Origin: Streptomyces sp. NRRL B-24085
Lineage (GTDB): Bacteria; Actinomycetota; Actinomycetes; Streptomycetales; Streptomycetaceae
Assembly (NCBI RefSeq): GCF_001282115.1
Contig: NZ_LJBR01000037.1
Location: 1 to 64,000, forward strand
DNA length: 64,000 nt
Reading direction: 5' to 3'
The notes beneath the pieces were generated by a model. That model had not been told where the DNA came from. It saw only the letters and a program-made list of their open reading frames with translations, and ran no database searches. Shown in pieces: positions 39,460 through 53,177 of this stretch. The position numbers were made by a program, and so were the translations under genes. Numbering within the stretch: the first letter of the stretch is position 1; each line of letters starts with the position of its first letter.

Positions 39460-40734
39460 GCAGAGCTTGCCCCCGGTAGTGACAGCGACGAGCGACAGCC
39501 TGACGGTGTCGTCTCCACGCCGACCAATTCAATGCGTGGGTGACGGGATCGTGGTCGGCTCGTGGCCGGGGCAGGAGAGCGTCCAGGAGCCGCCGGATCT
39601 CTGCCACCGTGAGCGGGACGAGGGCTGATGCGTTTCTGCAGCCCCCTTTGTGTCGCTGCTGGCCTCGGCCGCGAGTGCGGTCAGGACTGCATGGGCGAGC
39701 ATCGCGAGTGTGATGTGTCGATGCCAGCCGATGTAGCGTCGGACTTCGTACTCATCCAGGCCGCACTCGTTCTTCGCGGCCTGGAAGCACTCCTCGATGG
39801 CCCAGCGGCTGCCGGCGATCCGGGCCAACTCGGCGATTTCGATGCCGGCGGAAGCGTAGGCCATGTAGTAGGCGATCTCGCTGGGGTCGGACAGGCTGCG
39901 CCGGGCCATCACCCAGCGGTGATGCGTGGGCGGATCAGGGTCGAAGATGATGTTGCCGGGCAGTTTTGCTGCGGCCCAGTCGTAGATGCGCGGGCCCTTC
40001 GCCCCGTCGCCGCAGGACAGCCGCTGCCAGACATCACCAGGTGCCTCGTCGATGAGTTGGTCGATCCGCCAGATACCGGCCAGGGACTTGATCTGCTGGG
40101 ACTTGGGCACCGCCACCACATAGCCGACGTCGAGTTGTTCGAGCAGACGGCGGAAGTGCCAGTCCTGTCCATAGGCCTCGTCCGCGGTGACCCATGCGGC
40201 GGGCAGGCCGGCAGCCAGGCAGCGATGCATGATGTCCCTGGCCAGTTCGCCTTTGGTGGCGAAGGCCCGCTCGTCGGGGATCTTCGCTGCTCGGCACCGC
40301 TCGCGGTCAGCCGTCCAGGACTTGGGCAGGTAGAGTTCCCGGTCTACCAGAGCCCGGCCAGAGCCGGTGGCGTAGGCGGCGAACACCCCGATCTGGCAGT
40401 TGTCGATCTTCCCGGAGGTGCCGGTGTACTGTCGGCCCACCCCGGCCGACGTAGTGCCCTTCTTGATGAACCCAGTGTCATCGATGATCAGCACACCGTC
40501 GGGCCCCAGTCGTTCCGACACGTAATCACGGACATTGTCGCGCAGGGCGTCTACGTCCCAAACGCTACTGTTCAGCAGCCGCTGGAAGCCGTCAGGGGTC
40601 CGGTGGCCTTCCCATTCCGCAAGCTGCCAGCCGTTCTTCCGCGTCGACCGCCCCAGCAGACCACGAACGTAATCCCGCATCCGCCACCCGAGCGAATACC
40701 GACTCCAACTCAGCAGCCCAGCAAGCGACTTCAC
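39460..40734 (-). pseudogene. IS701-family transposase, 5'-truncated, C-terminal frameshift
   Basis: Starts within the usual N-terminal domain (MRDYVRGLLGRSTRKNGWQL; about 30 residues short of family starts). DDE residues are visible: Asp in VLIIDDTGFIKKGTTSAG, Asp in AAWVTADEAYGQ, Glu in GSRWAIEECFQAAKNECGLD. Near 39625 the frame shifts. The conserved ending (VAEIRRLLDALLPRPRAD, LNWSAWRRHRQAVARRCHY) lies in a neighbouring frame to about 39460. The 5' loss coincides with the neighbouring IS5 insertion. Confidence 0.8.
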
Positions 40735-40800
40735 TCATCCCTTGCATGCCAGGACAACGACAACCGCCAGCTCAGGACACGAACCGCTGCTGGAGTAGTA

Positions 40801-41905
40801 AGAGGGCGTTTTCTTCTGTTGTTTCATCCCGGATTGCCGGATTGAGGTGGTTCACGTGCCGCGCCAGCTCGGGGTGGATTCGGCGGTGAGGCGACGGGTC
40901 ATGAGGTTGATCATCGCGAGGTGAACCATGGCTTCGGAGCGGTGGGGGTGGGCTTCGTAATCGCGGGCCAGGCGGCGGTGGTTCATCAGCCAGCCCAACG
41001 TTCTCTCGACGGTCCACCGCCGGGGCAAGGCGGTGAAGCCTCTGGCGGCAGGGTCGCGGCGGACGATGTGCATATCGATCCCGAGGGTCGCGGCGTGCTC
41101 GACGAGGTACTGGCGGTAGCCGCCGTCGACCCAGGTCTTGCGGACGGTGGGATGCTCGGCGGCCACCTTCTCGATGAGGGCCTGGCCGGCGACGGAGTCC
41201 TGCACGCTCGCGGCCGTGACCAGCACCGCCAGCAGCAGACCGACCGTGTCGATGACGATGCTCCGCTTACGGCCCACGATCTTCTTGCCCGCATCGACAC
41301 CTTGGCCGGATGCCGGGACGTTGGTGGACGTCTTGATGCTCTGCGAGTCGATGACGCATGCGCTGGGTTCGGCCTCGCGGCCTTCCTGCCTGCGGACTTG
41401 GCGGCGAAGGAGACTGTTGAACTGGTCGAAGACGCCCTCCTCCTGCCACCGGGCGAAGTAGGCGTAGACAGTGTTCCAGTGCGGGTAGTCGTGCGGGAGG
41501 TAGCGCCAGGGGATCCCGGTGCGGTTTACGTAAAGGATCGCGTCCAGGAGGCTGCGCAGGTCATGGTCGGGAGGCCGGCCGATGTCCAGTCCACGGCCGC
41601 GGCGTTCAGCTCGCCAGGCGGTCAGGACTGGCTCGACCAACTCCCAGCGGGCATCGGACAGATCACTCGGATATCGGCGGCGTTCAGGCACAATTCGGGA
41701 CTACCCGCAAGGCGCAGGCGCGCGTGCCAGCGCTCGAAGCGCACGGCGCATAGTCCGGCGCCTTGGGATGAAACAGGAGCAGCCAGGCCAAGACGCCCGC
41801 TAAATCAACTCTCCTGCAACGCAGACCCCATCAACCTCATCGCTCACACCAGGTCCGGCATGAAAACCTATCTAAAACACCTTGATAAAGCGCAAAACAC
41901 CCTCT
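40801..41905 (-). mobile_element. IS5-family insertion sequence, apparently complete
   Basis: About 1.1 kb bounded by short inverted repeats AGAGGGCGTTTT (40801-40812) and AAAACACCCTCT (41894-41905), one mismatch. One intact transposase lies inside. A target duplication could not be assigned. Its right end is 48 bases upstream of the chloramphenicol leader peptide, and its left end truncates the IS701 gene. Confidence 0.8.
40852..41691 (-). CDS. IS5-family transposase
   Basis: 279 residues, uninterrupted. N-terminal DUF4096 region (SDLSDARWELVEPVLTAWRA; HDLRSLLDAILYVNRTGIPW). DDE catalytic set: ACVIDSQSIKTS (Asp), KTWVDGGYRQYLV (Asp) and RRWTVERTLGWLMNHRRLAR (Glu). The normal length and unbroken frame suggest it may still be active, unlike every other transposase in the window. 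Confidence 0.9.
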   Translation of the reverse strand: MPERRRYPSDLSDARWELVEPVLTAWRAERRGRGLDIGRPPDHDLRSLLDAILYVNRTGIPWRYLPHDYPHWNTVYAYFARWQEEGVFDQFNSLLRRQVRRQEGREAEPSACVIDSQSIKTSTNVPASGQGVDAGKKIVGRKRSIVIDTVGLLLAVLVTAASVQDSVAGQALIEKVAAEHPTVRKTWVDGGYRQYLVEHAATLGIDMHIVRRDPAARGFTALPRRWTVERTLGWLMNHRRLARDYEAHPHRSEAMVHLAMINLMTRRLTAESTPSWRGT

Positions 41906-41953
41906 GAGAAAGCAGGATGCTTCGACGGGCGTCGGTCGGGTAGCGTGCGGGCC

Positions 41954-42019
41954 ATGTCGAGTCCTGAGTCAGACAAGGTGGGGGCTTTCGGTCACACCGT
42001 CAGCCCCCTGAACCACTGA
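41954..42019 (+). CDS. Leader peptide of the chloramphenicol exporter gene
   Basis: 21-codon frame MSSPESDKVGAFGHTVSPLN-H from ATG 41954 to TGA 42017-42019. A TAGCGT -10-like box ends 7 bases before the ATG, so the transcript is probably leaderless here. Chloramphenicol stalls ribosomes and cmx/cmlR-type genes are known to be induced by attenuation through a short leader peptide. The frame spans a hairpin (41980-42008). Expression as a peptide is inferred. Confidence 0.55.
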   Translation: MSSPESDKVGAFGHTVSPLNH

Positions 42020-42055
42020 TCTCGTAGCCCTGCCGTCACACCGCTTTCCGCGGTG
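41980..42055 (+). promoter_or_regulatory. cmlR leader: Attenuator-like hairpins before cmlR
   Basis: Stem GGGGGCT (41980-41986) / AGCCCCC (42002-42008) lies within the leader peptide frame. A second stem CACCGC / GCGGTG (42039-42055) follows. A CTCC (near 42112) could also pair with the GGAG ribosome site of cmlR. Ribosome stalling on the leader would open the first stem. Order and spacing fit transcriptional or translational attenuation; pairing was judged by eye. Confidence 0.5.
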
Positions 42056-42131
42056 GGACGAGTGTGCGCACGGGGCTGGCCGTGGTGACGAGATGACCTT
42101 CTCGTGCCTCTCCTCACCCCGGAGCCACTCG

Positions 42132-43310
42132 ATGCCTCTCCCGCTGTACCTGCTTGCCCTGGCGGTCTTCGCCATGGGCACCTCGGAGTTCATGCTCGCC
42201 GGCCTCTTGCCGGACATCGCCTCGGATGTCGACGTCACCGTCGGGACAGCAGGCGTGCTCACCTCGGGCTTCGCGATCGGCATGATCGTCGGCGCCCCCC
42301 TGGTGGCCGTGCTTGCCCGCCACTGGCCCAGGCGCCCGGCCCTTCTCGGGTTCGTCCTCGTCTTCGCGACAGCCCACGCCTTGGGCGCCGTCACCACGAG
42401 CTTCCCCGTCCTGTTCGCTACCCGAGTCATCGCCGCGCTCGCGAACGCGGGATTCCTCGCCATCGCTCTGACAGCCGCGGCCGGGCTGGTCCCACCCGGC
42501 AGGAAGGGACGCGCGCTGGCCGTCCTGCTGTCGGGCACGACGGTGGCCACGATCGCCGGTGTCCCCGGCGGGTCAGTGCTCGGCACGGCACTCGGCTGGC
42601 GGGCCACCTTCTGGGCAGTCGCCGCTCTCTGCCTGCCCGCCGCTCTCGGCATCCTGAAAGGCTTCCCCGCGGGACATGACGAGGATGAAGCGACCGGCAG
42701 GCCATCGTTGCGAGCAGAACTCGCCCAGCTCGCCCGGCCGCGGCTGATCCTCGTCATGCTGCTCGGCGCACTGGTGAACGCGGCTACCTTCGGCAGCCTC
42801 ACCTTCCTTGCCCCCGTGGTGACCGACAGCACCGGGCTGGGCGAGCTCTGGATCTCTGTCGCTCTGGTGCTCTTCGGTGCTGGTTCCTTCGTGGGTGTCA
42901 CCGTCGCCGGACGGCTGTCCGACCGAAGGCCCGGCCCGGCCATCGCGGTCGCCGGTCCACTGCTGCTCATCGGCTGGCCCACTCTGGCGGTGCTGGCCAA
43001 TGTGCCCGCCGCCCTGTTCACCCTCGTGTTCGTGCAGGGCGCGCTGTCGTTCGCGCTGGGCAGCACGCTGATCACACGGGTCCTTTACGAGGCCGCGGGA
43101 GCCCCCACGATGGCTGGCTCGTATGCCACGGCAGCGCTGAACGTGGGCGCCGCCGTCGGCCCCGTCGTCGCTGCAGCCACGCTCAACACCGAAGCCGGGA
43201 TCCTGGGACCGCTCTGGACAAGCGGGCTGCTCGTCGCGGTCGCGCTGCTCATCGCATTCCCCCTCCTCACCGTCATCACGGCCGGCCGGGGCACCGAGGT
43301 GCTGCGATGA
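42132..43310 (+). CDS. cmlR: Chloramphenicol efflux MFS transporter (Cml/CmlR type)
   Basis: 392 residues from ATG 42132 (CGGAG 9 bases ahead). Twelve-TM DHA1 exporter: LLALAVFAMGTSEFMLAGLL is the signature first helix of the Cmx/CmlR group, and VPGGSVLGTALGWRATFWAV is antiporter motif C. The C-terminal half, VQGALSFALGSTLITRVLYE and AAGAPTMAGSYATAALNVGA, is almost word for word that of the S. lividans/coelicolor chloramphenicol resistance protein as I recall it. Expels chloramphenicol against protons. Its stop overlaps the ATG of a transposase fragment. Confidence 0.9.
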   Translation: MPLPLYLLALAVFAMGTSEFMLAGLLPDIASDVDVTVGTAGVLTSGFAIGMIVGAPLVAVLARHWPRRPALLGFVLVFATAHALGAVTTSFPVLFATRVIAALANAGFLAIALTAAAGLVPPGRKGRALAVLLSGTTVATIAGVPGGSVLGTALGWRATFWAVAALCLPAALGILKGFPAGHDEDEATGRPSLRAELAQLARPRLILVMLLGALVNAATFGSLTFLAPVVTDSTGLGELWISVALVLFGAGSFVGVTVAGRLSDRRPGPAIAVAGPLLLIGWPTLAVLANVPAALFTLVFVQGALSFALGSTLITRVLYEAAGAPTMAGSYATAALNVGAAVGPVVAAATLNTEAGILGPLWTSGLLVAVALLIAFPLLTVITAGRGTEVLR

Positions 43311-43580
43311 CACATGCGCATGCGCCCTCGCACATCGAGGAACGCCGACGGCCTGTGGAGCGCTGCCGCACCCGCCCGATCGCGCACGTCGCCGCCGAAG
43401 CCGGTGTACCGCGCGCCTGCCTGCCCACGTGGAAGAACCGGCACGACACTCACGACGAAGCCGAGTTGCAGGACCGCCCGAGCGTCCCGCGGTCCTCACC
43501 GACCCAGCTCCCACCTGATGTCGTCGAACCGATCGAGCAGCGGCGGCGGGACAACAGGTGGCCCGCCCGCCGAAACACCC
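43307..43580 (+). pseudogene. IS481-family transposase, N-terminal fragment
   Basis: ATG 43307 overlaps the cmlR stop. Reads MTHAHAPSHIEERRRPVERC, RTRPIAHVAAEAGVPRACLP, LQDRPSVPRSSPTQLPPDVV: the HTH region of IS481 transposases, with degenerate residues where SKWxNR is expected. Similarity fades after WPARRNT at about 43580. No catalytic core. It marks a deletion end directly behind cmlR. Confidence 0.8.
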
Positions 43581-43881
43581 TCGAACCTGCACGAGTGGAT
43601 CCTGCCGAGGGCCATGTGCCGCGTCAGGCAACGTTTGCGATGTTCGTTGTTGGCCCCTGGACGGTAGGTAACGTGGCCCGAAGCCGAGCGTTGTGGGCGC
43701 CGTCCCAATGCGAACCTCAACGCTCCGAGCGCCGAATCGGTCGCGCGCTCGGTCTGCGGTCTGGTTCGCATCACGACGGCGTCACAGTAGGTGCCATCGG
43801 GACACCGATGAGAAATGGCGCCGACAGTCGTCTGATTGCGGTCCGGTGGACGCAGGGCGCGCATCAAGGGAGAGCCACGGC
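43581..43881. other. Intergenic, no gene recognised
   Basis: About 300 bases between the IS481 scrap and the dihydrofolate-reductase-like pseudogene. Only antisense-like frames; presumably holds that gene's promoter. Confidence 0.35.
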
Positions 43882-44450
43882 ATGAGACCACTTCGATACT
43901 CGATCAACGTCACACTCGACGGCTGCTGCCATCACGAGGCAGGACTTCCCCCGGACGAGGAGTCGATGCGCTACTGGACCGCTGAGATGGAGCGAGCCGA
44001 TGCCCTGCTGTTCGGCCGGGTGACCTACGAGATGATGGAGTCAGCGTGGCGGAAGCCGGCCACGGGCACGTGGCCTGAGTGGATGGGTGAGTGGGAGATC
44101 CCGTTCGCCGAGACCATCGACCGGGCGAAGAAGTACGTCGTGTCGAGCACGCTGAGCGAGGTCGATTGGAATGCCGATCTGGTGCGAGGCGACTTGGGGC
44201 AAGCGGTTCAGCGGCTCAAGCAGAGGCAGGCGACGGCCTGTGGGTGGGGGGCGTGACGCTCCCCACGGCATTGGCAGACCTGGGACTGATCGACGAGTAC
44301 GAGTTCCTCGTTCAGCCAGTCCTTGCCGGACACGGGCCGACGTTGCTCGCCGGTCTGCGCGAGCGCATCCAGCTTGAGCTCGTGGACCGCCGCGAGTTCC
44401 GGTCGGGGGCGGTAGCCCAGCGATACCGGCCCGCACAAGTCACGGCTTGA
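43882..44450 (+). pseudogene. RibD/dihydrofolate-reductase-family protein, one frameshift
   Basis: ATG 43882 with AAGGGAGAG ahead. RYSINVTLDGCCHHEAGLPP, ERADALLFGRVTYEMMESAW and AETIDRAKKYVVSSTL are the N-terminal half of the widespread DHFR-like RibD C-terminal family. Near 44222 the frame shifts; GLWVGGVTLPTALADLGLID and EYEFLVQPVLAGHGPTLLAG continue to 44450. Apart from this single indel the gene is full length (about 188 codons), so it was lost recently or the indel is a sequence error. Confidence 0.85.
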
Positions 44451-44883
44451 CTTGATGTGTTGTCCTGGCACATTGGCCGCTCCCTCGACGGAACGTCGGC
44501 TCGGGTCGCACTGTCCCGCGCTGCCCGTACCCCGAGCGGCGGACATGTCGACGGGGGACATCGCCCCGAGGTGCCGCTCGCGGACAGGACAAACGTTGCC
44601 TGACGTAGCACTAACAACGCCTAACGGAATGGGCCGTGCAGGCTGATCTGCAGAGGTCCCGACTCACCGTCGGCGACGAACCGCGGCAGGAATTGCTCCA
44701 GCAGTCCCAGAAGTTGCCGAAGGTCGTCGGCTACCCTGTCGAACTCCGGTTCGTCCAGTGATGCCGTCCGTGTTCGATACACCGATCCGTCATGCGGCGC
44801 CTCGAAGTTCCCAACATCCTCCTGCACGTTATGGTGCCGCGCGCCAGCAACCCGTCGATTCCCAGAACCAGTTGTGCACCGGC
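44451..44883. other. Intergenic; possible minus-strand gene tail
   Basis: On the minus strand, about 44790-44621, the reading DEPEFDRVADDLRQLLGLLE then QFLPRFVADGESGPLQISLH has protein-like composition and may be the C-terminus of a lost gene. I do not recognise it. The remainder shows nothing. Confidence 0.3.
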
Positions 44884-44918
44884 GGGGTGGCCCGTGCGGA
44901 GTCCGCACGGGCCACCCC
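44884..44918. terminator. Strong hairpin after the I36 inhibitor gene
   Basis: 17-base arm GGGGTGGCCCGTGCGGA, one central G, then the exact complement. It starts 5 bases past the stop of the minus-strand gene at 44924. A perfect GC-rich stem without T-tract, typical of Streptomyces terminators. Confidence 0.8.
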
Positions 44919-44923
44919 CGGTC

Positions 44924-45430
44924 TCACGGTCCTTCGCAGATGGCGTTCGTCCACTGGTGCGAAGAGATGTTGTCGTTCAGGGTCTCGCCCTGTCCGGGAC
45001 CGTTGTTCGGGAAAAACCACTGTGACAGGTCGGCGTAGTACCAGCCGTTGTCGATGCAGGCGTTCGCGCCACCGTAGCCGGTGTCCCAGTAGACGACGAC
45101 GTTCGCATAGGAACCCGGGTAACCGCGGTTCTCGATCGAGCTTGCCTGATTGCGCATGTTCCCGCCGGGCGAGCAGGTGGTCCAGTCGGTGTCGTTGCCG
45201 ACCCAGCGACAGTAGTTGCCCGTCCTGTTCGCGCCCTCCCAGGCGTAGAAGTAGCCGTCCGCGGCCACAGCCGAGGAATCGGCGGCAGCGGCGGAAGCGG
45301 CGGACTTCGAGCCGGGGGTGGGCACGGGGGCCTCTGCTGCGCCGGCGATCCCCGGTGCGGCGAGAATGCTCAGGCCCGCGAGGGCGAGCCCCGCGAGGCC
45401 GGTGCTGATCTTCCTGGGTGATGCAGACAT
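44924..45430 (-). CDS. Secreted peptidase-inhibitor family I36 protein
   Basis: 168 residues from ATG 45430. Signal peptide KISTGLAGLALAGLSILAAP ending AGA-A, then an Ala/Ser-rich propeptide-like spacer (30-55). The mature domain GYFYAWEGANRTGNYCRWVG, NMRNQASSIENRGYP and ANVVVYWDTGYGGANACIDN has the beta/gamma-crystallin-like pattern of family I36 (SMI, a metalloproteinase inhibitor from Streptomyces). Four Cys suit two disulfides. Followed by a strong terminator and preceded by a lipoprotein gene 37 bases away on the same strand, so probably one transcript. Confidence 0.8.
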   Translation of the reverse strand: MSASPRKISTGLAGLALAGLSILAAPGIAGAAEAPVPTPGSKSAASAAAADSSAVAADGYFYAWEGANRTGNYCRWVGNDTDWTTCSPGGNMRNQASSIENRGYPGSYANVVVYWDTGYGGANACIDNGWYYADLSQWFFPNNGPGQGETLNDNISSHQWTNAICEGP

Positions 45431-45467
45431 GGCTGTCTCCCTGATTGTCGCTTCCGTGGTCGCGCGG

Positions 45468-46394
45468 TCAGTGCCCGGACAGATAGGCGCGAGCCCGGGG
45501 AAGCGCGCCCCTCTCCAACTGGAGTCGGCTGTCCACCGCCGCGCGGTACTTCTTCTGCAGGCGCTGGTCATAACGGGCGTCCAGCCGCTGTGCGGTGGCG
45601 GACAGCCCGGTACTGTGCGCACACCGTGCTTCGTCGACCGCGGTACGCACTTCCTCCTTTTGGTCCTTGGCCTTGTCCGAGACGAAGGCCGCGCGGGCCT
45701 GGCTCGGATCCGTGTAGCGGTGACCGTGTCGGCGCATGCACGTCGCCCATTCCCGCGTGGATTCGCGGAACTGCGGATCGGCGAGGACGTCGGCCCGGCG
45801 GATCGACGCGAGCGAGTTGGTCACCGCCTTGGCCCGGAACCATTTCGCAAGGCCGCCGTAGAGCTCTCCCTCTGTCTCCGCCAAGCAGCCGTCAGTGTTG
45901 CGCCCGGCGATGGCGCCGGTGGGCAGGCGCACCTCCAAGCCTCCGGTTCTTCCGCTGTAGGCGTCGACCGCCTGCGTCCTGCGCTGCGGAGGCAGACTTT
46001 GCAGGTAACGGCGGTTCGGATCAGTGCGCCGCACCTGGGCGATGCGCCGCCGCACGTCGCTGCCGTACCCATGCCGCTGTGCCCAGGCCAAGTCAGCCAC
46101 CACGTAAGGGAACGACTTGTCCTCGGGCACCGGATTCTCGGGTACCTTCCACACTTTGAACCCCTTGCGGGCCATGCAGCTTTGCACCATGGCCTGTTCG
46201 GCGTCGTACAGCAGCGACTTCTCCCGCGCCGTCAACGGCCATGCCGTTCCCGCAGGCTTCATCCCAGCCGGATCTTCCGCCCGCGTCTCCGGAACGTTCC
46301 CGTTCGAGCCACAGGCGGCCACGGCAAAGATCATTAGTCCCGAGACGGCAGCCAATAACCGGCGCCCGAACGCGGTGTCCCCCGTGTTGCCCAT
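45468..46394 (-). CDS. Lipoprotein of unknown function, partner of I36 gene
   Basis: 308 residues. Signal with RRLLAAVSGLMIFAVAAC: lipobox AVAAC, Cys about residue 28. The mature part has paired Cys-containing motifs (EQAMVQSCMARKGFKVWKVP; STREWATCMRRHGHRYTDPS; VDEARCAHSTGLSATAQRLD), a GxGxDxR segment (RHGYGSDVRRRIAQ) and a basic helical C-terminus. A recurrent Streptomyces family; I know no function. Located directly before the I36 inhibitor gene. Confidence 0.75.
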   Translation of the reverse strand: MGNTGDTAFGRRLLAAVSGLMIFAVAACGSNGNVPETRAEDPAGMKPAGTAWPLTAREKSLLYDAEQAMVQSCMARKGFKVWKVPENPVPEDKSFPYVVADLAWAQRHGYGSDVRRRIAQVRRTDPNRRYLQSLPPQRRTQAVDAYSGRTGGLEVRLPTGAIAGRNTDGCLAETEGELYGGLAKWFRAKAVTNSLASIRRADVLADPQFRESTREWATCMRRHGHRYTDPSQARAAFVSDKAKDQKEEVRTAVDEARCAHSTGLSATAQRLDARYDQRLQKKYRAAVDSRLQLERGALPRARAYLSGH

Positions 46395-46656
46395 GGAGTC
46401 GTCCCACTCTTCCTAGTTCTCGGTCGCAGTGCGCCGCCGGGTGCGGATCAGAGAGCCATCAGCGGCACTCCGCCCCGCCACCCTTTCGGGCGATCTTCCT
46501 CAGCGCGCGGTCCAGGCGCGGGGCGCGGGCAGCCGGCAGACCGACGACTTGACGCCCCCAGAGGTGACGGTGGTGCGATGTACCCGTTCCCTCTGACCCG
46601 GGCCCACCGCCGTCACGGACATTGCCTGTGGCTCGTGGTCATGCTCTACGGCCGGC

Positions 46657-47019
46657 TCAGGCGTCGTCCCAGCAGTAACCGTTCTCGACGGACAGTCCGG
46701 CGTACTTGTCACCCTTCAGGTAGACGGCGCTCACCCACCACGAGTAGCGGCTGCCCTTCTTGCCGGTGGCCACCCAGACGTCGTTCGAGTAGCCGTTGTC
46801 CGTGATGGTCTCGCCCCACTTCCAGCACAGTCCAAAGACGGTGTAGTTGGCCGGGTATACGTCCTCCCGGGCGCTCTTCGAGGTCGGGTAGTCCCGGACG
46901 TTCACCCGCTCGTACGTGGTGACCATTGCGCCTTGAGCTGCTGATGCCGGGCTGGTGGCGATCGCGGAGCAGCCCGCGACCAACGCAGCGACCAGGGCCG
47001 CCTTGACGGCATGCCTCAT
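46657..47019 (-). CDS. Secreted SH3-like domain protein
   Basis: 120 residues including start, from ATG 47019 (GGGGGAAC ahead). Export signal HAVKAALVAALVAGCSAIAT; it may be cut after ASA (about residue 28) or processed as lipoprotein at VAGC. The mature part (VTTYERVNVRDYPTSKSARE, CWKWGETITDNGYSND, YSWWVSAVYLKGDK) is a bacterial SH3 fold with two Cys. Such proteins bind cell-wall peptides or act as secreted signals. Monocistronic. Confidence 0.75.
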   Translation of the reverse strand: MRHAVKAALVAALVAGCSAIATSPASAAQGAMVTTYERVNVRDYPTSKSAREDVYPANYTVFGLCWKWGETITDNGYSNDVWVATGKKGSRYSWWVSAVYLKGDKYAGLSVENGYCWDDA

Positions 47020-47079
47020 ACGTTCCCCCTGTTCGTCCAACGGTCACAGCGACAGTCGCACGCACCTGCCAGGAGCACC

Positions 47080-47640
47080 ATGTTTTCGATCCCCTTCGAA
47101 ACGTGGGCGCGCGTGGGCCGGCCGCCGGCGCTGCGCGAGTTCAAAGACCCGCTCTTCGAGGTGTATCTGGCAGCGGGCTCCCCCAGCCTGAAGGAGATCA
47201 CCGAGGCCATCACCGACGACGACGGCCTGGTGGGGGCGCCGAGCCGGGACACGGTCCACGGCCTCATCAGCGACGCAGAACGACCTGGCCAGCAGACCTA
47301 TGTGGTCGCCGTGGTGACGGTGCCGGCCCGGCGGGCTGCCTGGGACACTCCGGATCTGGTGGGGCGGGTGCGTGAGCTGTGGCTACGGGCCCGGATGGCG
47401 CAGGGCGCGGAGCGCCCGATCAGCGACCTGCGCGGCGATCTCCGGCTCCTCCTGGACGCAGGACTGGGCATCCACCCGGCCCTGGACACCGACGGCGCGC
47501 GCCAGGGGGTTCGGGATTCTGCCCGCCTACGTCCCGCGGGACCACGACGCTCGCCTGAGGACGGTGGTCGCCGGCAAGAGCCGCACTTTGCGGGAGGCGG
47601 GTCCGAGTGCCCCAGAAGACCTCATCGCCGTACTGACGGC
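47080..47640 (+). pseudogene. N-terminal remnant of a large NTPase/STAND-type conflict protein
   Basis: ATG 47080 behind CCAGGAGCACC. RVGRPPALREFKDPLFEVYL, AGSPSLKEITEAITDDDGLV and APSRDTVHGLISDAERPGQQ form an HTH-like N-terminal module known to me from big Streptomyces ATP-binding proteins. The frame breaks near 47510; GFGILPAYVPRDHDARLRTV continues in another frame and similarity fades before the Walker A motif. About 170 codons remain out of probably more than 900. Confidence 0.6.
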
Positions 47641-48195
47641 AGCTCAGCGTGCAAGGGGGCCCCGCCTGGTACGAGCAGCGGCAAACCGCCGCTCACCAGT
47701 CTCAGGGCTGCAACAGTCACGGACTCCGCGCCAGGCTGTGTGACGACGTCGACGCCCTCGGCAGTTCCCCACAGCTGGTTGCCGGCGTGTCGGAGGTGCC
47801 GGAGCCGGCACCACGTGACGGCCTGGTTCCGCCGCCGTGGGACGGTACGCCCCCGATCCGCGCCCCGGGGCCGTTCCTCCGGGCCTCGGTATGTCTTAGC
47901 CCGCATGAACGGCGACGGCCACCCGTCATCGACGCCTTCACACCTTGGCAAGTCAGCGCGGCAGGGATGGCCGTGAGCTGATCGCGCTTGGGTGTCGGCC
48001 ATGTCTGGATGCGGTCCCAGCGGTGTGCTTCACGCCCCGGTCGCCTCTGCCCCAATAGCGATCACTTCAGTTGGAATATCCCCAAAAGGATGCACTTCAG
48101 CCATGTCGCTGGCTCTGGAGGCCAAAAGATCGGCAGAGTCTGTGGGGCAACGACACCCGTCCCACGGCCTCCTGGCTCAGTGAAGGGAACCGGAC
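47641..48195. other. Intergenic, no gene recognised
   Basis: 555 bases. Frames on both strands are noise-like. The last 120 bases are less GC-rich (around 48060-48100, ATAGCGATCACTTCAGTTGG) and probably contain the promoter of the small secreted protein gene at 48196. Confidence 0.4.
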
Positions 48196-48516
48196 ATGAA
48201 CTACCGCAGGCATCTCGCCGTCAGTCTCGTCGCGGCATCGGCTCTCCTCGGCGCCGGCCTCGTGACAACTTCCCCGGCATCGGCAGCCCCCACGGCATCT
48301 GCGGTGTCCGCGCAGGGCACGGCGCCAGCCTGCGTCACGCGGGACGTCATCAAGCACCGAAAGTACGTAAAGGTCACCAACACCTGCAACGTGGCCATGC
48401 ACTTGAAGGTCGTCATCGACTGGGGCAACGACTCGCCATGCCTCACCTACCAGCCCGGTGAGCAGTGGGAGTGGAACTGGGGCCGCGGCTCCTACGGCAA
48501 GGTCGTCACCTGTTGA
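48196..48516 (+). CDS. Small secreted protein, alpha-amylase-inhibitor-like Cys pattern
   Basis: 106 residues with signal peptide RHLAVSLVAASALLGAGLVT, cleavage after ASA (residue 30). The mature part has four Cys (46, 64, 82, 106), spacing 18/18/24, close to tendamistat (16/18/28), and a beta-rich sequence APACVTRDVIKHRKYVKVTN, MHLKVVIDWGNDSPCLTYQP. The Trp-Arg-Tyr inhibitory loop of tendamistat is not seen, so inhibition of amylase is not claimed; only the disulfide plan suggests the fold. AAGGGAACCGG precedes the ATG. Monocistronic. Confidence 0.6.
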   Translation: MNYRRHLAVSLVAASALLGAGLVTTSPASAAPTASAVSAQGTAPACVTRDVIKHRKYVKVTNTCNVAMHLKVVIDWGNDSPCLTYQPGEQWEWNWGRGSYGKVVTC

Positions 48517-48865
48517 ACCGACCAGCGCCCCGTGCCCAGTCCTCAGTGACTGCGCGCCGGGACGCAAGCACTCTCCGCCCCGCCCAGTCCTTCCGCCGGA
48601 CCAGAGGGAACGGGAGGGGTACGGTATGCCGCGGCCGACTCGGGGATGGCCGCGGCACCCGCATCTCACTCACCCCGAAACGCGCCGGAAGTGCCACGCC
48701 CCGAAGGTGTTCACCAATTTCCCCTCCCACGTCCTGCCAGTCTGCGCCGATCGGGCGAACCAACTGACTCGCTCTCTGAGGGGCATGGGTGGGCGGGAAT
48801 GTCTGCTCCTTCCGCCACACCGTCTTTGCGGCGTGGCGGGGCGGTCGAAATCTTGAAGCGCCAAG
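48517..48865. other. Intergenic, no gene recognised
   Basis: About 350 bases after the secreted protein. No credible reading frame or strong hairpin was recognised on either strand. Confidence 0.35.
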
Positions 48866-49440
48866 GTCAGGCGGCGAACTCGATGTTGGTGACGTACTCG
48901 TATTGGCCTCACTGGGAACCGAGGTCGACGGCCAGGTTGACCCAGGCGCCGTCCAGCGCCTGGTCGTGGCCGACCGCCCACGCGGCGACACTCCGGTCCC
49001 AGCGGCGCAGATCCAGCGAATTCCATGGGGCGCTGGCGCAACCGGGAGACGCCGGACTGGTTGAAGGGATGGATCTCGACGCGGGTGCCGCGGCCGTCGC
49101 GGTTGAGCCGGGCGGCCGTTAGCGGGCGACGTTCTGGCGCCGCACGGTGCGGTACGCCTGCTCGATGCGCTCGAGGTTGCGTCGGGACGGGGTGGGGGTG
49201 CTGGCCGTCCAGGCGCACCGGGTGCGGTCGGTGACGGTCAGCCTGGCCGTGCGGGCCGCAGCCCGGGCGTGGGGGGTGCGGGTGAGGTAGTTCAGGCGGA
49301 CCAGGAGGGCGCATCGGGTGGTGACGGGGCAGCGATGTAGCTGGCCTGCACGTCCAGTTGGCGGGCGACGGCCTCGTGGCCCTTGATGCCGTGGGCGCCG
49401 CACTTGCCGAACTCGATGTTCCGTTTGTAGTGATTCCGCT
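48866..49440 (-). pseudogene. Plasmid/phage-type Streptomyces protein, multiply frameshifted
   Basis: Successive minus-strand frames give RNIEFGKCGAHGIKGHEAVA, ALLVRLNYLTRTPHARAAAR, RRNLERIEQAYRTVRRQNVA, RDGRGTRVEIHPFNQSGVSR, and finally ALDGAWVNLAVDLGS and YEYVTNIEFAA near 48870. The order and wording recall proteins on Streptomyces plasmids and integrative elements, often labelled transcriptional regulators. At least three frame changes and in-frame stops; no function left. Confidence 0.55.
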
Positions 49441-49769
49441 CTCCGGTGAGCGCGCGTGCATCGCGGGGGCGGGGAGACTCCCCTGGGCGGACGCCTTGCC
49501 GCGCAGCGCGGGGGCAACGCCATCCCGAATGAGACGAGAGCGGGTTGACCAGCAGATGTCCGTCCCGCAGGTGACCACCCCGTTCCTGAATCGCTCACGT
49601 GAACATGGGGTGCGGTGGCCTGGTGGCGCCAGGGCTACCGTGCCGGTTCGCCGCGGGCGGTCAGCGCAGATTTCGTGAAAAGCCGGGTGACGACCCCGCG
49701 ACAAGCAGAGCATTCCGTGTGCCATCTGTCATGTACCGGATCAGCGACATCTCACCCAAGGAGTTGCGG
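49441..49769. other. Intergenic, no gene recognised
   Basis: About 330 bases, no protein-like frame. It contains the promoter region of the secreted protein gene at 49770 and an AAGGAG ribosome site at 49759. Confidence 0.4.
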
Positions 49770-50249
49770 ATGAAGCGTTTACGGAGAACACAGCTGATCG
49801 GCCTCGGAGTCATGGCCCTGACGCTCGGCCTGGTCTCCGCCCCGACTGCGCAGGCGGCACCCTCCGGCGAGACAAATGCCGCTGCGGCCGGAGCCGTTGA
49901 GTGCAGTGGCAGTTGGGACGGCAAGAACTACTGGGCCAAGAGCCCTTCAGGGAGCAGCGGGGGCGGCTATGCGCGCACCTACTGGAACTCGTCGACCAGG
50001 CAGAACTGTGCGAAGTTCTTCTCCAGCCCCTACGACGGTCTGGCGTCCTACATCACGCTGTATCTCCACGACGAGAGCGGTGACTACGCAGCTGACCCGC
50101 CCCCCGAGCACCCAGCGAACTACCACTACTACGCCGGACCCGTCTACACCTGGTTCGACGCGACCAATCAATGCATCCACCTGAGCGGGTCACTGATCCG
50201 CGGTGGGGTGAAGTACACCCTCAGCACCCCGGACATCCGGTGCGGCTGA
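49770..50249 (+). CDS. Secreted protein of unknown function
   Basis: 159 residues from ATG 49770. Signal peptide RTQLIGLGVMALTLGLVSAP, cleavage after AQA (about residue 29). The mature protein has four Cys and many Tyr, Trp, Ser and Gly (SWDGKNYWAKSPSGSSGGGY, TYWNSSTRQNCAKFFSSPYD, YHYYAGPVYTWFDATNQCIH), implying a disulfide-bonded beta fold. No family recognised. Ends 50 bases before a strong hairpin, so monocistronic. Confidence 0.7.
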   Translation: MKRLRRTQLIGLGVMALTLGLVSAPTAQAAPSGETNAAAAGAVECSGSWDGKNYWAKSPSGSSGGGYARTYWNSSTRQNCAKFFSSPYDGLASYITLYLHDESGDYAADPPPEHPANYHYYAGPVYTWFDATNQCIHLSGSLIRGGVKYTLSTPDIRCG

Positions 50250-50299
50250 TCCATCTGCGCTGAACCGTCCAGCGGCACCACTCACTTCACAGGTGCTGT

Positions 50300-50325
50300 G
50301 GGGCACCCGGAGGAACGGGTGCCCC
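50300..50325 (+). terminator. Terminator hairpin after the secreted protein gene
   Basis: GGGGCACCCG-GAGGAA-CGGGTGCCCC, a perfect 10-base stem with a 6-base loop, 50 bases past the stop codon at 50249. Confidence 0.8.
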
Positions 50326-50546
50326 AGGTGCCTGGTGGCGTGGTCGGCTGCTGAGGGTGCCGGGGACAGGGATGCGCCGGGGTGTTCGGTGGTCACATCG
50401 GCGCGGGTGTGGCTGCCGTGCCGGGAAGGGGTCGGGGAGCATCTTCTCGCCCCCTCCCCCACTGCGTCCCCCTGAGAAACGTCAGCTTGGGAGATCAAAC
50501 TGATCAAGGGCTGAACCATGGAACGGCGGGAGCCCGACAGTGTCCA

Positions 50547-50951
50547 TCACGGCCCGTCGTCCCCATGACGGTGGGCGACCCGCCACCACCCGCCCTCGCG
50601 ACGGTAGACCTGAGTCACCCGCAACGTGTAACTCGTCGGCTTGCCGTGGACGGACACGGACGTGCGCTCGAAGCCGGCCGTCCAGGCCAGGTCGCCCACC
50701 ACGTCGCACGCCCGCAGCTCGAACGCATACGACGTGCAGTCGGAAAAGCTCTCCGCGAGGTGGGTGAAGAGCTCATCGACCTCACGTAGCCCGAAGGCGT
50801 TGCGCCAGGCGCCGAGCACACTCACCGGCTCCTCGTGGGACCACAGCGCCCTACGCGGGTCCGCGTCGCCGTTGTGGAGGGCCAGCTCCGCCGCGTACAG
50901 GTCGGATCCGACCCAGGCCAGGAAGTCGTCGCGCTCGCTCATAGCAGCCAT
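50547..50951 (-). CDS. SnoaL/NTF2-like (DUF4440) protein
   Basis: 134 residues from ATG 50951 (GGAGCGG ahead) or 131 from ATG 50942. Cone-shaped NTF2 fold: DDFLAWVGSDLYAAELALHN, DPRRALWSHEEPVSVLGAWR, and final strands TLRVTQVYRREGGWWRVAHR. Members are ketosteroid-isomerase-like or act as small binding proteins; no catalytic Asp pair is clear. Monocistronic, facing away from the SDR at 51328. Confidence 0.8.
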   Translation of the reverse strand: MAAMSERDDFLAWVGSDLYAAELALHNGDADPRRALWSHEEPVSVLGAWRNAFGLREVDELFTHLAESFSDCTSYAFELRACDVVGDLAWTAGFERTSVSVHGKPTSYTLRVTQVYRREGGWWRVAHRHGDDGP

Positions 50952-51327
50952 CGAAGCGCCGCTCCGGCCTGACCGCCTCCCAGCCCGGCAGGCGGGTGAT
51001 CTGCGACAGATCTCGATCCCCGTCGGGCGGCCGGTACGCCAACCCAGGGTGGTGATGTCGATGGTGCGTGCCTTGCGCGGCGAGCCCGGACCGATGGCCA
51101 CACGGCGACGAGTTCTCCGGCATCGGAGGATGGGCGCCCATGCCGAGACCAACGCTGCACGGTGGGCAGTGACTGGGCATGGGCGGCAGGTCTTGCCGCG
51201 TCCATTCGAGAGGATCAGGCAAGAGGCGAAGAGGATCATTCTTTTGCGCGGGCCTGGCACGGCGGTCTCCTGGAAGAGACACATTCCCCCGGATTTTAAC
51301 TGATCCTCAAGGCCCAGGAGGCACAGC
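50952..51327. other. Divergent intergenic region, nothing recognised
   Basis: 376 bases between the NTF2-like gene (minus) and the SDR (plus). It must carry both promoters. An AT-richer segment near 51280-51300 (CCCGGATTTTAACTGATC) lies 30 bases before the SDR ATG. No gene seen. Confidence 0.4.
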
Positions 51328-52086
51328 ATGAAGGTAGCCGTCGTGACCGGCGCAAGCTCCGGCATCGGTCAGAGCGCCGCCCTGCAGATCGCCCGGCGCG
51401 GTTCCGGCGTCATCCTCACCTACAGCTCCAACGAACAGGGCGCAAAGGACACCGTCGCCCGGATCGAGCAGCACGGCGGCACTGCCGCGGCACTGCACCT
51501 GGACCTCGCCGACACGGCGGGATTCACCGTCTTCCGGGAGACCGTTGCCGAGGTGCTGCGCGAGACCTTCCAGCGGACCTCCTTCGACCACTTGGTCAAC
51601 AACGCCGGATTCGCCGGCATGGCGATGATCGAGGACACCCGCGAGGAGGAATTCGACCGACTCACGAGCGGCCTGTTCAAGGGCCCCTTCTTCCTCACGC
51701 AGGCCCTGCTGCCGCTCATCGTCGACGGCGGCGCCATCGTAAACGTGACCAGCAACTCCATGCTGCCCCACGTGACCGCGCCGGGATACTCCGTCTACGC
51801 GGCGCTCAAGGGCGCCGTAGCGGTGCTCACCCGCTACATGGCCAAGGAGTTCGGCCCCCGCGGCATACGCGTGAACTCGGTCGCACCGGGAGCCACCGTC
51901 ACCCGCTTCGCCGACGACGCGTTCGGCAAGAACCCCGAGATCATCCCGGAACTGGCAAAGACCTTCACTCTCGGCCGCGTCGGCGAGCCCGACGACATCG
52001 GCATGGTCATCGCCATGCTGGTCTCCGAGGAAGGCCGGTGGATCACCGCCCAGGACATCGAAGTCTCCGGAGGCCAGAACCTCTGA
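51328..52086 (+). CDS. SDR family oxidoreductase
   Basis: 252 residues. VAVVTGASSGIGQSAALQIA, NNAGFAG, NVTSNSML and YAALK (catalytic Tyr/Lys), C-terminus WITAQDIEVSGGQNL. Ribosome site CAGGAGG 7 bases ahead. Followed 191 bases later by an AraC regulator in the same direction, a common pairing for stress-type reductases. Substrate not predictable. Confidence 0.85.
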   Translation: MKVAVVTGASSGIGQSAALQIARRGSGVILTYSSNEQGAKDTVARIEQHGGTAAALHLDLADTAGFTVFRETVAEVLRETFQRTSFDHLVNNAGFAGMAMIEDTREEEFDRLTSGLFKGPFFLTQALLPLIVDGGAIVNVTSNSMLPHVTAPGYSVYAALKGAVAVLTRYMAKEFGPRGIRVNSVAPGATVTRFADDAFGKNPEIIPELAKTFTLGRVGEPDDIGMVIAMLVSEEGRWITAQDIEVSGGQNL

Positions 52087-52277
52087 AACGCTCCTGCTGC
52101 GAACTTGAGCCGCGCCAAGAGCTCTCCGCCCAGCCACGGCTCACTCCGCGACGGGCCGAGACACCAGCCACCGGATCCGGTCGCGGGGGGACGACCGAAC
52201 ACTCACGGAGTCACCCGTGCATGCCCGATCCTGCCCAGCAAGCCTTCCGGTCTGGAGGTTTGTGCAAGGATCGATTC

Positions 52278-53177
52278 ATGTCTGCCCTGGATGAAATGCG
52301 TGAGCTACTCGACCGGCACGCGCGGCCCGACATGAGCACGGCGATCGACGGCATCCAAGTCTGCAGATTCCTCCCTCCCCACACGTCGGCAACCGGGATG
52401 TCCGGGACCGTGCTCGCAGTCATCGCCCAGGGCGGCAAACGTCTCGCCCTGGGCGAACGCCTTTACGAGTACCGGCCCGGCGAGTACCTGATCACCTCCG
52501 CCGACCTCCCCGTCACCGGCCATGTCCTGGACACCGGACAGTCCACCCTCGGCTTCGGCATGACCATCTCCCCCTCAGCCCTTGCCGACCTCCTGATGGA
52601 AGCCGACCCCCGGGACCTGCCGGCCACCCCACGCACCACAACGCCCGGCATCGCCGTCTCCACAGCTTCCCCCTCACTGCTGGACGCCATCGTGCGGCTG
52701 CTGCGGCTGCTGGACCAGCCCGCGGACCGCAAGATCCTCGCTCCCATGGTCAAGCGGGAAATCCTGTGGCATCTGCTGCGTGGGGAACAAGGAGCCGCTC
52801 TCCGCCAGCTCGGTCTCGCCGACAGCGCACTGGCCCACATCAACCGCGCCGTGCGTGAGATCCGGGAGAACTATGCCACCGCCTTCCGGGTCGAGGACCT
52901 GGCGGACATCGCCGGCATGAGCGTTTCCGCCTTCCACCGCAACTTCCAGACCGTCACAGGGATGAGCCCCATCCAGTTCCAAAAGCGCATCCGCCTGCAA
53001 GAAGCCAGGCTCCTGCTCGCCGGCCGCCCCTCGGACATCACCGGTGTGGGCCTCAGCGTCGGCTATGACAGCCCATCCCAGTTCAGCCGCGAATACCGTC
53101 GCATGTTCGGCACACCGCCCAGCAAGGACACCCAACTACGCACTCCGCCGGCAGAACGCACCACTGCCCTGCCCTGA
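52278..53177 (+). CDS. AraC-family regulator with cupin-like N-terminus (AraC_N)
   Basis: 299 residues from ATG 52278 (AAGGATCG ahead). The N-terminal AraC_N sensor (SGTVLAVIAQGGKRLALGER, YEYRPGEYLITSADLPVTGH) is that of YqhC-like regulators, which respond to aldehydes. Two C-terminal HTH units: RVEDLADIAGMSVSAFHRNF and ITGVGLSVGYDSPSQFSREY. YqhC-type proteins activate neighbouring aldehyde reductases, so the flanking SDR genes are likely targets. Confidence 0.85.
   Translation: MSALDEMRELLDRHARPDMSTAIDGIQVCRFLPPHTSATGMSGTVLAVIAQGGKRLALGERLYEYRPGEYLITSADLPVTGHVLDTGQSTLGFGMTISPSALADLLMEADPRDLPATPRTTTPGIAVSTASPSLLDAIVRLLRLLDQPADRKILAPMVKREILWHLLRGEQGAALRQLGLADSALAHINRAVREIRENYATAFRVEDLADIAGMSVSAFHRNFQTVTGMSPIQFQKRIRLQEARLLLAGRPSDITGVGLSVGYDSPSQFSREYRRMFGTPPSKDTQLRTPPAERTTALP

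Follow-up and report, generated by a model that had tools for sequence, protein, structure and literature searches.

Streptomyces sp. NRRL B-24085 carries, within the 64,000-nucleotide stretch of contig NZ_LJBR01000037.1 that we analysed as a whole (the window), a region at positions 44,884 to 50,325 with five small genes for exported proteins (Table 1). Three of them, encoding a stand-alone SH3-type protein, a lipoprotein and a protein labelled as peptidase inhibitor I36, follow one another on the minus strand, and this trio, above all the lipoprotein and the I36-labelled protein, is our main subject. The other two encode a tendamistat-like protein and a 159-residue protein that we call SapA-like. 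All five open reading frames (ORFs), proposed as exported in the first-pass annotation of this DNA, are intact and begin with Sec-type N-termini; a crude signal test was positive for 5/5. The term 'disulfide-rich', applied there to all of them, is loose, the SH3-like protein having just 2 cysteines in its mature part. The hints at the I36 and amylase-inhibitor families held up: PF03995 in the I36-labelled protein (27.8 bits vs a cut-off of 21.1) and PF01356 in the tendamistat-like protein (28.2 bits vs 25) are the only Pfam matches above cut-off among the five. A Pfam scan of the lipoprotein, the SH3-like protein and the 159-residue protein returned nothing above cut-off.

The minus-strand trio and its proteins

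The SH3, lipoprotein and crystallin-type genes are arranged in a row with one hairpin, at their end, and probably form one operon. An inverted-repeat scan of 44600-50600 returned 7 pairs, three with separated arms (44884-44918, 48627-48657 and 50299-50326) and four that are overlapping palindromes at 47742, 48479, 49080 and 49842. The stretch from 44919 to 47741, which contains the trio, is free of such pairs. The RNA folds around the first and the third repeat beat all 200 shuffles and the fold around the second did not. Folds of 46400-46500 (z -1.3) and 46500-46640 (z -0.25) are not clearly above shuffles, and a scan for T-tailed terminators gave nothing above shuffles. The gap between the lipoprotein and I36 genes measures 37 nucleotides (nt), that between the SH3 and lipoprotein genes 262 nt. 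An own terminator or gap for each of the five genes, as formerly supposed, was not confirmed. Judged by the positions of the repeats and hairpins and by the strands, the region would comprise three transcription units, namely the minus-strand trio and two single plus-strand genes.

Structure prediction, named in the first-pass annotation as a check, gave confident cores for the I36-labelled protein and for the lipoprotein (AlphaFold, single chains). The model of the I36-labelled protein, built from a 37-row alignment, has a per-residue confidence (pLDDT) mostly >90 in its core and matches 67 PDB chains at E <= 0.001. Betagamma-crystallins fill the best 50 rows of both the Foldseek and the VIA-align search, with archaeal 3hz2 as the best structural match (Z 13.5, root-mean-square deviation 1.7, 84 residues) and spherulin 3a (1hdf) at Z 12.9. 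The I36-labelled protein is thus modelled with a two-Greek-key betagamma-crystallin fold, and we refer to it below as the crystallin. The calcium motif of betagamma-crystallins reads N/D-N/D-x-x-S/T-S; the second calcium-type motif of the window protein is N-D-N-I-S-S at residues 152-157 (N152-D153-x-I-S-S). Directly behind it, H158 is kept in 101/103 and W160 in 103/103 aligned rows. At least one exact calcium-type motif occurs in 58/102 homologues and none in the other 44. Microbial calcium-binding betagamma-crystallins (spherulin 3a, 3hz2, protein S) share both the modelled fold and this second motif. Unlike them, the window-type protein has a dedicated lipoprotein, the invariant tryptophan and near-invariant histidine after the motif, and conserved cysteines, and its domain also occurs as a predicted kinase ectodomain.

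The lipoprotein carries a lipobox (V-A-A-C28) after its signal peptide and four further conserved cysteines (73, 170, 219 and 258), which are invariant. The lipobox cysteine is nearly invariant in one alignment (A1), and 56/69 long lipoprotein rows have a lipobox-like pattern. Its model is mainly helical and confident in the core, with block means of 87-99 from residue 51 on. The protein matches no Pfam or NCBIfam family, and comparison of its fold with the PDB returned nothing below E 1.6 and a best Z of 4.2, which is not proof of a new fold; by sequence, too, no PDB chain matched convincingly. Of the two proteins for which the first-pass annotation had found no known family, this one keeps that standing: it is a real family without a name.

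In related loci, NlpC/P60 hydrolases and an M23 peptidase carry in their C-terminal parts the domain family to which the SH3 domain of the window also belongs. The hidden Markov model (HMM) of the window domain scores 66.8 bits against the SH3 part of L111_8, an M23 protein that passes PF08239; the window protein itself has no match to that Pfam SH3 family.

The lipoprotein-crystallin pair and its neighbours

At E <= 1e-10, 65 of 199 genus genomes contain a match to the lipoprotein and 27 a match to the I36 protein, the latter at 30 places. All 30 of these adjoin a lipoprotein place, as compared by eye. From this search we used the 67 best of the 88 lipoprotein places outside the window, leaving out the 21 weakest (E 7e-21 and weaker). 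An independent scan added 45 lipoprotein loci from Streptomyces, Nonomuraea, Sphaerisporangium, Actinomadura, Micromonospora, Catellatospora, Mangrovihabitans, Nocardioides, Fodinicola and Kribbella. In the resulting 113 loci (67 from the genus search, 45 from the independent scan and the window; L194, L208 and L229 lie on the same contigs as L110, L106 and L107 and are duplicates), a six-frame profile search, independent of gene calling, found a crystallin ORF downstream of the lipoprotein ORF in 111. The same search gave no crystallin ORF downstream of the lipoprotein in L162 and L163. The count of 111/113 replaces two counts based on gene calls (61/64 and 37/39), which omit loci whose lipoprotein the caller missed. 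The protein distances of the two partners co-vary, with a Mantel r of 0.88 over 93 distinct pairs (after removal of identical and short rows), to which species history contributes; none of 999 shuffles was as high, the best reaching 0.09. The lipoprotein and the crystallin are therefore a conserved, co-varying gene pair of actinobacteria. Searches of the open-licence PMC literature showed no description of this pair among the titles and abstract starts listed.

Upon inspection of the related loci, the crystallin domain also appeared outside the pair. Its profile matches the C-terminal part of serine/threonine (Ser/Thr) kinases in L151, L152, L156, L157 and L164, and 5/5 of these kinases contain PF00069 and PF03995 above cut-off. 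A hydrophobic stretch precedes the crystallin domain; by hydropathy only, it stands out in L156, L157 and L164 but less so in L151 and L152, and we predict these domains to be ectodomains. An M23 peptidase in L164 bears a C-terminal domain of the same family. Two kinases of the same group have a lytic-transglycosylase-like ectodomain in its place, with PF13406/PF01464 above cut-off in L140 and a weak transglycosylase match in L108. The L157 ectodomain matches 40/199 genus genomes, and kinase fusions make up 19 of the 30 loci returned for it. These fusions to kinases and a hydrolase are the main reason why we read the crystallin as a recognition domain and not as an inhibitor. SH3-like ectodomains, seen by eye in the kinases of L103 and L111, are not claimed, the SH3 HMM falling short of 1e-3.

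Several kinds of regulator recur near the pair. They include SARP-type BTAD-NB-ARC-TPR proteins (Pfam-tested in L102, L110 and L203), which come with an M15 peptidase, a sigma factor and an NlpC/P60-SH3 hydrolase; Ser/Thr kinases accompanied by a 250-residue neighbour; nSTAND1-WD40 proteins (Pfam-tested in L114 and L117); and DUF5937/ArsR-like regulators. In the 39 independent-scan loci with a called lipoprotein, for which the labels had been defined on the other set, these regulator and wall-enzyme families make up 41/185 genes within three genes of the lipoprotein vs 8/157 at six or more. Four regulator labels need 18 changes on the lipoprotein tree, a quick tree with open forks, so the regulators were probably exchanged often. 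On this tree the window lipoprotein groups, with support, in a set of 7 rows, of which 4 are SARP-type. The row nearest to it by path is S. chryseus L203, where the order is SH3-SH3-lipoprotein-crystallin-SH3-SH3 beside a SARP. In the window itself, a search of 40000-53000 with related-locus proteins (tblastn, E 0.01) gave no SARP, STAND, kinase or ArsR-type match. The host has a second pair on contig C307 (L102, C307:1-8400), accompanied by a SARP, an M15 peptidase, a sigma factor and an NlpC/P60-SH3 protein.

The 250-residue kinase neighbour had been labelled FHA by eye; the label was dropped because Pfam gives it no support, and the protein is a family without a name. At L131:4611-9365, where no lipoprotein was called, an SH3 protein and a small I36 protein (PF03995) adjoin a 1274-residue nSTAND1-WD40 protein.

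Proposed envelope sensing weighed against other roles

We favour, with moderate confidence, the view that the trio makes up that half of an envelope-sensing or wall-remodelling module which lies outside the cytoplasm, with no regulator found beside it. The three proteins would be exported together. The lipoprotein would be anchored on the outside of the membrane, holding or presenting the calcium-type crystallin domain in the wall space, where the crystallin would recognise an envelope-related or calcium-dependent state; the SH3 domain would bind peptidoglycan and hold on to the wall. In complete loci elsewhere a cytoplasmic regulator may read or control this outside half. The cytoplasmic half would there be one of three kinds: a SARP-type NTPase regulator accompanied by wall hydrolases, a STAND-WD40 protein, or a receptor Ser/Thr kinase, for which a crystallin or lytic-transglycosylase-like domain can serve as the predicted ectodomain. 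Because no regulator partner was found in the window, its trio may be a leftover or may act with the C307 copy.

More tentatively, the loci taken together could reflect a previously undescribed form of envelope surveillance in actinobacteria. Crystallin, SH3 and transglycosylase-like domains would be shuffled among secreted proteins, hydrolases and kinase ectodomains, the helical lipoprotein would tie the free crystallin to the membrane, and the transducer (kinase, SARP, STAND-WD40 or ArsR-like) would be swapped, the window holding a stripped, outside-only version. One comparison is with PASTA-type receptor Ser/Thr kinases such as PknB. Like these, some related loci combine a kinase with a predicted wall-facing ectodomain. 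What sets them apart is the type of ectodomain, crystallin or transglycosylase-like, in some cases accompanied by a linked lipoprotein and a free crystallin; the window has the outside parts alone. Some pairs also lie beside nSTAND1-WD40 or NB-ARC regulators, a likeness to the NTP-dependent conflict systems of Kaur et al. 2020 (PMC7159879); by term counts, the main text of that paper contains 'secreted' and 'peptidase inhibitor' 0 times and 'lipoprotein' once, in the references.

Several observations weigh against the envelope-sensing reading or narrow it. Cys28 of the lipoprotein is not among the nearly invariant columns of alignment A3, and 13/69 long lipoprotein rows have no lipobox-like pattern, the choice of start being uncertain. 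The first calcium motif of the window crystallin starts with an arginine. Few loci (the window, L137 and L203) combine the pair with small SH3 genes. Of the 19 crystallin-kinase fusions, just 7 have a lipoprotein place within 10 kb; such kinases are thus also found away from the pair. None of the 41 near genes in the 39 independent-scan loci is a kinase or a kinase neighbour, and the contrast in the set on which the labels were defined (77/310 near vs 1/235 far) is biased by the choice of families. In 31/93 pairs, among them the window (set by hand), no regulator of these types lies within three genes. As for the kinase neighbour, 0/5 members have any Pfam match at E 0.01, and a sixth has just a sub-threshold match to PF16697 (20.6 bits vs a cut-off of 33.2).

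The strict pairing and co-variation of a small secreted protein and an extracytoplasmic lipoprotein, together with the cell-wall hydrolases nearby, would also suit a crystallin-fold toxin that attacks other cells, with the lipoprotein as an immunity protein shielding the producer's surface. A crystallin-fold killer-toxin-like protein is known from Streptomyces. We nevertheless regard the toxin reading as unlikely, since a domain that is fused to kinases and to an M23 hydrolase is more readily understood as one for recognition than as a toxin, and since lipoprotein loci without a crystallin are rare (2/113), whereas orphan immunity genes are usually common. The same fusions, with the domain as a predicted kinase ectodomain, speak against the proposal that an I36 protease inhibitor is displayed by the lipoprotein and protects extracellular enzymes. 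PF03995 speaks for it, as does the crystallin-like fold of the founding Streptomyces metalloproteinase inhibitor; the likeness to that inhibitor consists in a profile match, the difference in a domain common to kinases and an M23 hydrolase, and the hydrolases among the identified recurrent neighbour families are peptidoglycan enzymes. We give this proposal very little credence. Protection through inhibitors, which the first-pass annotation had put forward for the region, gains little from these results: the I36 domain is modelled as a crystallin and also sits on kinases and a peptidoglycan hydrolase, and the tendamistat-like protein does not have its family's contact triad (see below).

A structural role would connect the calcium-type crystallin fold and motif with the SapA-like gene nearby: with the lipoprotein as anchor, the crystallin would assemble with calcium into a layer coating aerial hyphae or spores, after the manner of Myxococcus protein S, which is described as polymerising with calcium in spore development (PMC10574481). 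Against such a coat speak the links with kinases, with regulators of the SARP and STAND types and with hydrolases, and the result that no SapA-like gene was called in the 67 genus-search lipoprotein loci; we think it quite improbable. The envelope-sensing reading gives the unnamed lipoprotein family a neighbourhood and a testable role, suggests that in this setting 'I36 inhibitor' labels mark crystallin domains acting at the envelope, and points to kinases with predicted crystallin ectodomains.

Single genes, decayed DNA and surroundings

The tendamistat-like protein resembles the tendamistat family in its profile match and its four cysteines. It differs in having RKY where Z-2685 has WRY, the contact triad of tendamistat amylase inhibitors, and since this triad is absent, amylase inhibition by the window protein appears unlikely from its sequence. 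WRY is found in 6/26 relatives aligned over the site, and the four most similar relatives are without it. Relatives in the genus that keep it are those of L049, L050, L051, L054, L057 and L061.

The 159-residue protein, the other one counted as familyless in the first-pass annotation, is by sequence similarity a divergent relative of spore-associated protein A (SapA). It has 6 close orthologues (73-88% identical) among the 199 genomes; weaker relatives are 29-49% identical, some over the signal region alone. Its likeness to the SapA family lies in the mature part, which scores 23-29 bits to three relatives (phmmer) and 7.8 to a fourth (L133), and in the relative L125, which is 47-57% identical to plasmid genes annotated as spore-associated protein (5/15 rows listed). 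The best match of L125 among the rows listed, at 81%, is annotated as hypothetical. SapA of S. coelicolor is described as located on spores (PMC7042404). The tendamistat-like and SapA-like genes look like independent secreted proteins, unrelated to the trio.

Table 1. Features of the region and of related loci, with coordinates in the window or in the locus named
Feature	Coordinates	Strand	Remarks
I36-labelled/betagamma-crystallin-type protein	44924-45430	-	168 aa; third gene of probable operon; Sec-type N-terminus
Lipoprotein	45468-46394	-	308 aa; second gene of probable operon; Sec-type N-terminus
Stand-alone SH3-type protein	46657-47019	-	120 aa; first gene of probable operon; Sec-type N-terminus
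Tendamistat-like protein	48196-48516	+	106 aa; putative separate transcription unit; Sec-type N-terminus
SapA-like protein	49770-50249	+	159 aa; putative separate transcription unit; Sec-type N-terminus
17-bp perfect inverted repeat, likely terminator of trio	44884..44918	-	repeat scan; RNA fold z -5.2
Inverted repeat after tendamistat-like gene	48627..48657	+	repeat scan; surrounding fold z -0.8, not significant
Hairpin after 159-aa gene	50299..50326	+	repeat scan; fold z -3.2
DDE-transposase-gene relic, SH3-lipoprotein gap	46408..46591	.	DNA identity 79-83% to L263-L266, 73-80% to L267-L270
Broken gene, N-terminal part only, outside module	47080..47508	+	relatives in open frames of up to 1255 codons
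Decayed repeated element or gene	48865..49423	.	copies elsewhere in this and other genomes
Ser/Thr kinase with predicted crystallin ectodomain	L157:6229-7617		
Ser/Thr kinase with predicted crystallin ectodomain	L164:8482-9891		
Ser/Thr kinase with predicted crystallin ectodomain	L156:6026-7429		
Ser/Thr kinase with predicted crystallin ectodomain	L151:5008-6411		
Ser/Thr kinase with predicted crystallin ectodomain	L152:5031-6431		
M23 peptidase with C-terminal I36/crystallin domain (PF03995)	L164:6017-6856		directly after lipoprotein-crystallin pair
Kinase of same group, lytic-transglycosylase-like ectodomain	L140:5426-6970		
Kinase of same group, lytic-transglycosylase-like ectodomain	L108:10083-11603		

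The 'patch' of the first-pass annotation dissolves into three separate things, the trio (one probable operon with a conserved core) and the two plus-strand single genes. Among genes distant from the lipoprotein, 12/392 (about 3%, by a crude predictor) are small (<320 aa), exported and have at least 3 cysteines; the rate in control loci, 16/230, is inflated, as those loci had been picked for such genes. With the rate of ~3%, ~8000 genes and the trio as one unit, hand arithmetic gives ~1 expected case per genome of three such units close together, and the clustering is unremarkable once the operon is counted as one unit. Around the 6 close orthologues of the 159-residue protein and in 5 tendamistat-like loci (18 kb each, one of 7.9 kb; in L129 the gene caller missed the tendamistat-like gene itself), no gene was called for any of the other four families. 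We rejected a single cluster of competition proteins, since the loci examined do not show the five genes together and the trio is one unit. An exception is the SH3 locus L133, in whose 18 kb a distant SapA-like gene occurs together with a kinase, the 250-residue neighbour of that kinase and two small SH3 proteins.

Viral contigs held no relatives of the lipoprotein or the 159-residue protein. A plasmid search returned 9 records for the lipoprotein, the best at 33% identity in an 11.8-Mb Nonomuraea record, and zero for the 159-residue protein. With the viral contigs empty and the plasmid matches few and distant, viral or plasmid cargo was rejected. The window contains no tRNA and no Rfam match at the gathering threshold.

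Dead or mobile genes do surround the exported ones, as the first reading of this DNA had it. The L263 gene that matches the transposase relic between the SH3 and lipoprotein genes carries PF13359. The broken gene at 47080-47508 was considered as the trio's lost regulator and rejected: its relatives are another family, and no related-locus regulator matches there. Relatives of 48865-49423 show 68-85% DNA identity on host contigs C70 and C22 and in several other genomes, and one of them has no Pfam family. The stretch at 44608-44792 recurs at two places in genome G020, with 80-85% DNA identity, and in the host (C239), with 76%. On one side of the region, 39529-41640 holds two transposase genes (DDE_5 and IS4/5 type), and shortly downstream of it a small SnoaL-like protein (PF13474) is encoded at 50547-50951.

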